Assembly: GCA_963966185.1 (NCBI GenBank)
Contig: CAWZYM010000011.1
Span: 227,001 to 291,000, forward strand
Length of the DNA: 64,000 nucleotides
Reading direction: 5' to 3'
DNA from: Rhabditoides inermis
Lineage: Eukaryota > Nematoda > Chromadorea > Rhabditida > Rhabditidae
The notes under the pieces are model-generated. The model saw nothing but the letters and a program-made list of their open reading frames with translations, did not search any database and was not told the origin of the DNA. The stretch's first letter is position 1, and the number at the start of each line of letters is the position of its first letter. A program made the position numbers and the translations under genes. Shown here in pieces: positions 1 to 49,846 of the stretch.

Positions 1-373
1 ATTGATGACAAGTAATGCAATAAATCACATTTGTTGTAAGACAACTGCAACTGGGCGTTCTAAGAGTAGTTACATAACAATCAGTAGCATAACAGTATAT
101 TTGATCAGAGTGATCAACCTGTGGACAGATAAGACATTTAGTGTTCGGGCAATTAGTACTCACATTGCTGTGTGAAGAATGACCATTGACTAGCAAAACT
201 TTGCCCTTCTGGCGTTTCACTAGATAGGAGTCACTGGTAGTGGAGAAAGATGGTTTACGTGTTGGTTTGGTTTTTGGATTAGGAGCAGGAATTTGAAAGG
301 CAGAAACCCTTTTACGGCAGGGACACCTAAATAGGCACCGAAATACGACGAAAGAGTCTAGAGGGTAGACGGG
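1..373 (-). mobile_element. Partial retroelement ORF, cysteine-rich region leading into a GIY-YIG endonuclease
   Basis: The minus strand is open from just after a TAA at 374-376 to the window edge, with no ATG in this part. Seen: a basic, proline-rich stretch, then a cysteine motif of the form C-x4-C-x2-C, then a second cysteine cluster ending PSCSCLTTNVIYCITCHQ. Known: Penelope-like and related GIY-YIG retroelements carry a C-rich linker followed by a C-x-S-x-NVIYxIxC-xx-C segment that opens the GIY-YIG nuclease. The catalytic part would lie left of position 1. No reverse transcriptase is visible in the 1 kb upstream (higher coordinates) of this ORF, so the copy is either 5'-rearranged or spliced. 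The upstream frame stops at 374-376, so it may be dead. Confidence 0.6.
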
Positions 374-654
374 TTATACTCTTGCCTGGTTTTCCCCGTA
401 CTACCCAAACGTCAATCGAAGGTGGTTTATGCAACCGAAGAATAACAGGAAGTATAGACTGTAAGGGGCCCGGACCACATGAGCCCTCTCGGAAGAATAA
501 CATAAAGACGGTATATTGAATGAAGAATAACGGATAGAAAATGACTCCAATTACCAAACACTAAACAAAAGAAGTATTAAATAACAGGTTGAAAATATCA
601 TAGAAACAAAGTAACATAAAGGATAAAGGTGAGATTTTTTCTCATATAAATGAT

Positions 655-874
655 ATGCCTTCCTCTCCCAAGTTATCACTTATGGGAGAGGTTGGCTCCT
701 CCAAGAATAAAAAAAAAGATAGCAATAAGAAAGAATTCTTAGAGGTGTTCCTGTTCTCTTCGAGGTATCACTTACGAAGATACTAGGGAACGTCCTTCCA
801 GGTATCACTTAGGAAGGGGGTGCGCTCTCAAGGTATCACTTATGAGAGCGCGGGTCTCGCCGTGAACGGTGAGA
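655..874. other. Row of five hairpins, four sharing a 12-nt loop
   Basis: Four hairpins have arms 662-670/683-691 (9 bp), 757-762/775-780 (6 bp), 794-799/812-817 (6 bp) and 822-830/843-851 (9 bp). All arms are perfectly paired and all differ in sequence. Each closes the loop AGGTATCACTTA (671-682, 763-774, 800-811, 831-842; the first copy reads AGTTATCACTTA). Hairpin 1 extends outward with GCC/GGC (657-659/694-696), and hairpin 2 with GTTCC/GGAAC (747-751/787-791). A fifth hairpin (855-862/867-874, including one G-T pair) has a TGAA tetraloop and lacks the shared loop. Varied but paired stems around a fixed loop suggest structure-and-loop recognition as RNA or single-stranded DNA. Function and coding strand are unknown. 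The row lies upstream, in transcription sense, of the minus-strand retroelement ORF. Confidence 0.85.
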
Positions 875-1420
875 AAAGAAAGAAAGACAAGTAAAACAAC
901 ATATAGTACACAATAAAACATGTACAATACAATACAAATGTCAAATATTGCCTTTTATAGGCTGGGCAGGAAAGAAATACAAATAGAATTACATACATAA
1001 GAAACAGTAGCAGAAATACGAGTAAAATATAAATACAACGTGAAGTAACACGAGTAGAAATTAAATGAATGCTGAAAGTACATCGGCCTTTCTCTACTTA
1101 ATGACTCCATTCGTATCAAACACACTGAGAAGGCAAACACACTGAAAAGCCTAGTATGTTAATCGAATATGAAACTAATCAAAAACAAGATACCGACACG
1201 CGACACCGTAAAAAGGAAAGAAAGAAACAATTTCACATACATACGAGACCGATGCAGACTCTCAAAACGCGGGTGTGTTGAATATGTGACTACGCGAACA
1301 CACTGATGCCAGATCGAACGTCTGAGGTCTCTTCTCACCCAATCCTCCTTGACAAGCGTCGCGTTTATAGCCATATGCTGGAAGTTTGAAATTCGCAGAA
1401 AAAAAATTCGCAAAATTTAC

Positions 1421-48823: not shown

Positions 48824-49846
48824 CCACACCACACTCCCTCCGTCTTTGTACATACACACAGCCCCCCCCCCCTTTCGTTTTTCTGCCTTCGTCGCCGTAA
48901 TAATACGAAGTATAGCCAGAATTTCGCTAGATCGTTTCCCCCCATACTCAGCGTGCCTTTTCTTACTCACTTGGTGCGTCCCTCGTATTTATCACTCACA
49001 TCACTCACAGTTGCAAACTTGCCAAAACTCAAGCTCGCCCACCCGAACAGTTCACTTGCCTACACTGCTCATTGCTCACGTATTATTCACGTATTATTTT
49101 GTGTCGATAATTATGCGAATTGTGAATATCGAATAAATATCTCAACTTTTTTCGTCTTTGCAGTACTGCAGTTTCTCAGTTTCACTTTCTAACTTCATTA
49201 TTTTGCTTCCAGTGGGAGTGTGTGTGTGTGACTCTGAATAAGGCGGCTAGCGACGAATTCATTCGGGGTAATGATCCAGGAAGCAACTGCAGTGACGTAT
49301 TTTCTCTCTCTCTCTCTCTCTTCCTCTCTCTCCCTCTCTCCCTCCCCTTCTCCCTCCCCTTCTCCCGAGCGAGCCGAGGTGGACATGCTCATGCACACAC
49401 TTGTCCGTCAGAAGAGAAACATGCGCGAGAGTGAGAGAAGCTAAATTTGAAAATCAGCGCCCGCAGTGAAGTGGAATGTACCATCTGATAACCATAAGGA
49501 TCAAAGCAACAACAAAACACAAACAACCCAAGGCGACTCAGCGGAAAAAAATGAGCGGAAAAAAATGATGTTTGAAGTTTGATCATTCGATGTACTATAC
49601 AACTGCTGTATATATTCGATTACTAGCAATTTAATTTCGTATAGTAAGTTCTGAAAGTTAATCATAAATCATATAACTAACCATATTGGTGAGTTGAATT
49701 ACTGACTACGGTACTATGAACAGACTGCATCCGCAAAGAGAAGCATACGTTTTTTTAGGATTGGCGTTCGTTGGCGTTGGCGTTTTTTTGGCGTTTTTTT
49801 TAGATTGCTTGATTTTCAATATTATTATTATTATCTTAGTTATGTG
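48824..49846. other. Intergenic region before the 28-exon gene
   Basis: It contains the 3' UTR and AATAAA (49132-49137) of the preceding partial gene, a CT-rich microsatellite at about 49301-49368, and an AT-rich stretch with ATT trinucleotide repeats (49820-49835) just upstream of the next start codon. The promoter probably lies here, but no defined element was recognised. Confidence 0.5.

Follow-up and report, generated by a model that had tools for sequence, protein, structure and literature searches.

A hairpin row with one shared loop in the putative 5' leader of a Penelope-like retroelement from Rhabditoides inermis

What holds one 12-nt loop constant across a row of hairpins whose stems differ? 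The question is raised by positions 662–851 of the window, the 64,000-nt stretch of Rhabditoides inermis DNA that was analyzed here. Four hairpins in this interval display the loop AGGTATCACTTA, in one copy AGTTATCACTTA, on perfect stems of 6–9 bp. The loops occupy positions 671–682, 763–774, 800–811 and 831–842 and the perfect arms measure 9, 6, 6 and 9 bp, respectively, which confirms the initial annotation in its description of the row. It had further been proposed that the stems share no sequence, that compensatory variation argues for selection on structure plus loop, and that the row may be a signal of the adjacent retroelement.

The hairpin row and its host element

Within positions 640–890, four hairpins combine a 12-nt loop with perfect arms no shorter than 6 bp, as compared to a mean of 0.062 and a maximum of 2 in 1000 dinucleotide shuffles. 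Two hairpins with loops no more than one mismatch apart were found in 0 of 1000 dinucleotide shuffles of the same region, and a chance repeat as the source of the row is ruled out by this count. The folding of the array region gave z-scores of -6.95 for the plus strand and -6.23 for the minus strand, neither of which was equaled in 200 shuffles of the respective strand.

The four hairpins, numbered HP1 to HP4 in window order, are not as unrelated as had been supposed. The stems of HP1 and HP4 are alike (CTCCCA/CTCTCA adjoining the loop), as are those of HP2 and HP3 (TCTTCG/CCTTCC), so that the absence of shared sequence was overstated and duplication is likely. Within each of the two pairs, the stems differ by compensated base pairs when compared by eye. 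The hairpin row is a section of a longer leader, the features of which are collected in Table 1.

Table 1. Coordinates of the leader features and the adjoining coding region in the window
Feature	Position	Strand	Description
5' part of the window's copy of the element	1..1078	minus	From flank alignment of copies
Start of the open frame (GIY-YIG part)	1..373	minus	Frames continue beyond the window to about C11:224460, interrupted
GGGCTCATGTGGTCCGGGCCC	466..486	minus	Identical in the lineage-2 leaders C242 and C407; possible 6-bp hairpin (one G.U) containing ATG
HP1	662..691	minus	CCTCTCCCA-TAAGTGATAACT-TGGGAGAGG, 9 bp; outer GCC/GGC at 657-659/694-696
Hairpin without the common loop	699..745	minus	Between HP2 and HP1
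HP2	757..780	minus	TCTTCG-TAAGTGATACCT-CGAAGA, 6 bp
Possible outer helix of HP2	747-751/787-791	minus	Would add GUUCC/GGAAC
HP3	794..817	minus	CCTTCC-TAAGTGATACCT-GGAAGG, 6 bp
HP4	822..851	minus	GCGCTCTCA-TAAGTGATACCT-TGAGAGCGC, 9 bp; first loop hairpin in sense order
Stem-loop TCTCACCGTTCACGGCGAGA	855..874	minus	5' edge of the array; lineage 2 differs by one base (TTCA/TTTA)
TATA-like box GCCTATAAAAGGC (sense)	950..962	minus	Upstream of the array; putative promoter

Judged by domain make-up, the host of the array is a Penelope-like retroelement (PLE) of approximately 3.9 kb in which a GIY-YIG domain precedes the reverse transcriptase (RT); the element itself is of an already known kind. Alignment of the flanks identified a single interspersed element of this length, with its ends near -2870 and 1078 on the numbering of the window. 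Since the minus strand codes for the GIY-YIG domain followed by the RT, the array sits in what would be the 5' leader, and the loop in the element RNA would read UAAGUGAUACCU. In the C375 copy, PF01541 was identified at 116–200 (E = 2.3e-5); PF00078 lies in the following frame, which overlaps the first (E = 3.1e-10). The coding part of the window's copy is broken into several frames; other copies present single open frames of approximately 970 aa across the matched part. The array is located downstream of the TATA-like box, and approximately 290 nt separate it from the open frame that follows; the probable sense strand was assigned from these two features.

Head-to-tail copies, consistent with a pLTR organization, were observed at the L056 and L060 junctions, at the L038/L041 junctions, and in C52, where four copies lie 5110 bp apart. 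The 5' ends were compared for nine of the 11 copies of the window's lineage (lineage 1), with L037 and L039 omitted for want of the marker string. Six of the nine extend further in the 5' direction with a common sequence that is absent from the window's copy.

No match in the window reached the Rfam gathering score, and by this and the searches that follow, the identity of the array as a known RNA family or a hammerhead was rejected. The hammerhead ribozyme was absent from the window at the gathering score and from positions 380–1100 at E ≤ 5, and the hammerhead models gave no match in L061, L068, L069 and L071–L075 at E ≤ 1. One sub-threshold Rfam match was present in 380–1100, mir-23c at 789–822 of the plus strand (16.8 bits versus 83, E = 2.8). 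Five sub-threshold miRNA matches were obtained in the search of these further loci, all of them within L061 in its flanking DNA.

Two further features of the window lie apart from the array. From 6948 to 42994, the window consists of a satellite whose 72-bp unit is repeated about 500 times with 92% matches, and the frames of up to 2483 codons inside it are probably accidental. Positions 48872–49526 are paralogous to L054 5901–6741 with 90–95% identity. The L054 segment is followed by the 3' end of the element and the window segment runs on without it; the latter resembles an empty copy of the insertion site.

Copies of the array and a second lineage

The host assembly (172.6 Mb in 599 contigs), which by its size and short introns appears eukaryotic, was searched with positions 600–900 of the window, resulting in 23 matches. 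Eleven of these, the window included, were full-length at 95–100% identity; the remainder comprised four diverged partial units in C360, one in C536, one in C333, and six short satellite pieces in C131. Nine of the 11 arrays continue into the coding part of the element, and the two in C131 adjoin satellite. The sense loop on pyrimidine/purine (Y/R) arms was matched 31 times, each time inside the 11 arrays, and the reversed control was not matched at all; this pattern does not require full complementarity and other types of arms are invisible to it. The exact sequence AGKTATCACTTA occurs 88 times in the genome, with 42 occurrences in the 11 arrays, four in the C360 units and 42 elsewhere. A host-wide motif was rejected, as those elsewhere amount to background (43 occurrences of the reversed pattern). 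The loop array is, as far as searched, restricted to this element family.

Among the 11 close copies, all six inner Watson-Crick pairs are intact in 37 of 43 listed hairpins, the others being broken or wobbled; the 44th hairpin, HP2 of L041, was left out due to a base inserted in its loop. The loops of the close copies contain one substitution (C123) and one insertion (C514). Taken together, the close copies do not clearly point to constraint since copying.

Some of the partial matches have a history of their own. Between about 11598 and 16046 of C131, six leader pieces (window 425–673, one of them 522–673) are arranged on one strand with a spacing of 875 bp, apparently as a satellite grown from the PLE leader. 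The diverged units L042 (C360) and L053 (C333) contain HP1 and its neighbors without HP2–HP4, with (TCCG)n runs nearby, and may be remnants of another subfamily.

The genome was also searched at the protein level, where 59 of 432 candidates were scored and 60 matches listed. Among the matches listed were a lineage at 66–68% amino acid identity (lineage 2), three copies at 44–46%, and five at 31%. The lineage-2 array was located by DNA search at 32 places in the genome, and the leaders of three copies (C242, C407 and C52) were examined. Three of the four loop hairpins are kept in the same order behind a nearly identical 5' stem-loop, with a hairpin lacking the loop at the place of HP2. The stem at the HP4 place pairs CGTTCTCCC with GGGAGAACG, C52 having TGTTCTCCC and with it a U.G pair; the stems at the HP3 and HP1 places pair CCTTCC with GGAAGG and GTCTCA with TGAGAC, respectively. 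The lineage-2 loops are, in order, UAAGUGCACCU, UAAGUGCACCU and UAAAUGCACCU. Read in the sense direction, the lineage-1 loop UAAGUG-AU-ACCU corresponds to UAAGUG-C-ACCU in lineage 2, the same AU/C difference being present in three hairpins, and the loop of HP1 has two further differences between the lineages.

The six Watson-Crick pairs next to the loop are kept in all nine lineage-2 loop hairpins of the three copies. For comparison of the stems, six of the 11 lineage-1 arrays and three of the 32 lineage-2 arrays were aligned with MAFFT; since the alignment shifts the HP4 3' arm by one base, pairs were counted by eye from the hairpin listing. The inner stem of HP3 is identical in both lineages with 0 differences, and the HP1 stem has two-sided changes at two of six pairs. 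For HP4, eight of nine pairs differ two-sidedly if the stems are anchored at the loop, or, with a single indel admitted, one two-sided change remains together with replacement of the pair that closes the loop. Loop-sharing pairs of hairpins at least 25 nt apart were found in none of 500 shuffles each of the window, C242 and C52 leaders. An earlier control that counted overlapping hairpins was too loose: five leaders gave positives in 77 to 144 of 200 shuffles and C52 in 26 of 200. All 53 genome matches to the lineage-2 loop on Y/R arms fall inside 30 of the 32 array places (control: 0), and the exact pattern is absent from the array places C65 and C276.

The second lineage bears directly on what had been proposed for the row. 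The order of the array is maintained across approximately 32% protein divergence, two-sided stem differences are still paired, and the loop change is common to the hairpins, such that selection on structure plus loop is well supported. The proposal of a signal belonging to the adjacent retroelement gains support as well, from the position of the row in the PLE leader and from an order and pairing that are kept in a related lineage. The strongest evidence comes from the comparison of the lineages and not from within the window, where the argument from compensatory variation had been made, and the 11 close copies are without clear constraint.

Two observations on the tandem copies and the putative promoter region of lineage 2 may be added. 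At 70.7–88.8 kb of C52, each of four lineage-2 frames spaced by 5110 bp has an array that is 100% identical to the query. In the C242 leader (L068 133–145), the TATA-bearing hairpin GCCTATAAAAGGC is present as its exact reverse complement, as if flipped.

More distant lineages yielded less. Leader hairpins around another common loop are weakly supported for the third lineage (44–46%). The C19 leader (44%) contains CCTC-UGGUAUGUCC-GAGG, CTCT-UGGUAUGUCC-AGAG and CTCT-CGGUUGUCC-AGAG, with outer stems that differ between the second and the third; the loop is unrelated to those of lineages 1 and 2. Since its loop-sharing statistic was matched by one of 500 shuffles and the array is in part explained by duplication, it was counted as a hint only. 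The 18-nt inner hairpin of C19 was found at 15 sites with up to two mismatches (reversed control: 1). It is exact at C18, C19 and C498, and of the 12 sites with two mismatches, 11 are one variant in which the outer pair is unformed. The C89 leader (31%) presented two hairpins only, with the loops AUAUUUU and UAUUUU, which was too little for use, and most of the C301 leader was masked. No tandem repeats were identified in L064 by a scan that is blind to periods over 500. Searches for relatives in bacterial and archaeal contigs, in viral contigs, and among solved structures returned nothing useful. The protein search produced one distant relative (28%) and, through that relative, 53 further proteins. 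Four database relatives of P0001, namely P0019, P0023, P0026 and P0028, also bear PF00443 (ubiquitin hydrolase) in their precomputed domains.

Candidate roles for the array

A loop held constant on free stems, present several times and changed alike between sibling elements, resembles a multivalent docking site, which suggests a docking array for a loop-recognizing protein or RNA. Specifically, the array may serve the N-terminal GIY-YIG PLE as an RNA signal that acts in cis from the 5' leader, most likely docking the element's own protein; confidence in this explanation is evenly balanced. Each hairpin would offer the same single-stranded loop, the exact letters of the stem would matter little, and one partner could bind several times. 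Since the loop differs between sibling elements of one host, the partner would change with the element, which points to the element's own protein as the most likely partner. That protein would use the array, near the start of the transcript, to single out the element's RNA for use as template. Four points here are presumptive: that the minus strand is transcribed, that the array is bound, which partner binds it, and that it serves in template choice.

Wobble pairs provide mixed evidence on the sense strand. Sense-type G.U pairs are found in the C360/C333/C536 units (pair 7), in HP4 of C52 (pair 9) and in HP3 of C123 (pair 2). At pair 9, the same units have wobbles of the antisense type; two more belong to a single C131 copy, and every lineage-1 copy has them immediately beyond HP3 and HP4. 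The docking explanation is further weakened by the missing loop at the HP2 place of lineage 2, by the close copies with their unclear constraint, and by the unrelated, weakly supported loop of the third lineage.

The leading rival, considered rather unlikely, is that the array binds a host factor, either an RNA-binding protein that serves export, translation or stability, or a factor in an IRES-like use. The leader is long, strongly folded and contains upstream ATGs, and the window's copy has no ATG early in its GIY-YIG frame, such that translation may need help. However, both loops on Y/R arms were found in these elements only, and they differ between two elements of one host, a difference that a fixed host factor would not favor.

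Loop-loop (kissing) contacts, in which the loops would pair among themselves or find a partner site in the element and so promote dimerization or folding, are less probable again. A shared pairing partner would fit the common loop change, and the lineage-2 loop contains the palindrome GUGCAC, but the lineage-1 loop is without such a palindrome. The longest complement to the lineage-1 loop in the window's copy is 7 nt, and 145 of 200 shuffled loops reach at least 7 nt. As a match of this length is not beyond chance, the idea that the lineage-1 loop pairs elsewhere in this copy was rejected.

An origin by mutation without selection is considered slightly more doubtful still. Template switching, as in quasi-palindrome correction, would perfect the arms, and duplication or gene conversion would homogenize the loops. 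The related stems of HP1/HP4 and HP2/HP3, where duplication is likely, agree with such an origin, and the inverted TATA-bearing hairpin is a possible product of template switching. Conversion of 12-nt loops and not of the adjoining stems, three times over, nevertheless seems unlikely, and the order of the array has been kept over the protein divergence noted above. Finally, a DNA-level signal, with repeated sites for a transcription factor or the endonuclease, perhaps as extruded cruciforms, is highly improbable: although the array is near a TATA-like box and DNA is the substrate cut by GIY-YIG nucleases, a duplex site has no need of complementary arms, and both lineages have perfect inner arms.

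Relation to known systems

RNAs that dock protein through multiple hairpins are familiar from viruses with capsids in the form of RNA-phage coat-protein operators and packaging signals. These would work alike, with a fixed loop, a free stem and several copies, and no kinship is claimed. Nearer to the host element are the PLEs with an N-terminal GIY-YIG domain, which Craig et al. reportedly described in 2021 as the Naiad/Chlamys type. They likewise place the GIY-YIG domain ahead of the RT and form head-to-tail copies. To our knowledge, no leader hairpin array with a shared loop has been described for the Naiad/Chlamys type.

In PAc, the Poseidon PLE of Anolis carolinensis, the protein requires the first 172 nt of the ORF in its RNA template, reverse transcription most often begins in an AC-rich stem loop there, and the full upstream pLTR is not required (PMC11167929). 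PAc is a precedent for the docking explanation and is alike in needing RNA near the start of the ORF, in initiating at a stem-loop, and in its tandem copies. It is unlike the element considered here in having a C-terminal endonuclease, a hammerhead ribozyme, the needed RNA inside the ORF and no repeated-loop hairpins within the main-text section of PMC11167929 used here. The pLTR of the Penelope elements of Adineta vaga contains a TATA box that is readable both ways, and a palindrome marks some of these pLTRs at their 5' end (PMC3846280). Those palindromes differ in that they are single and longer (18 and 38 bp), and in the main text of PMC3846280 the words "hairpin", "stem" and "loop" have 0 occurrences. 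No description of the leader array was found in the open-access literature searched; subscription papers are mostly outside that scope, and absence from print is not claimed.

The choice of template RNA by Penelope-like elements is poorly known. Here, a compact hairpin is repeated and its loop is not the same in sibling lineages within a single host, which provides a direct test of RNA recognition in a PLE with an N-terminal endonuclease. We would tentatively, and with the doubt outweighing the expectation, extend the docking explanation to a lineage-specific loop code, in which the shared loop would be rewritten in all hairpins when the RNA-binding protein of the element changes. If this is true, each PLE lineage would recognize its own RNA only.
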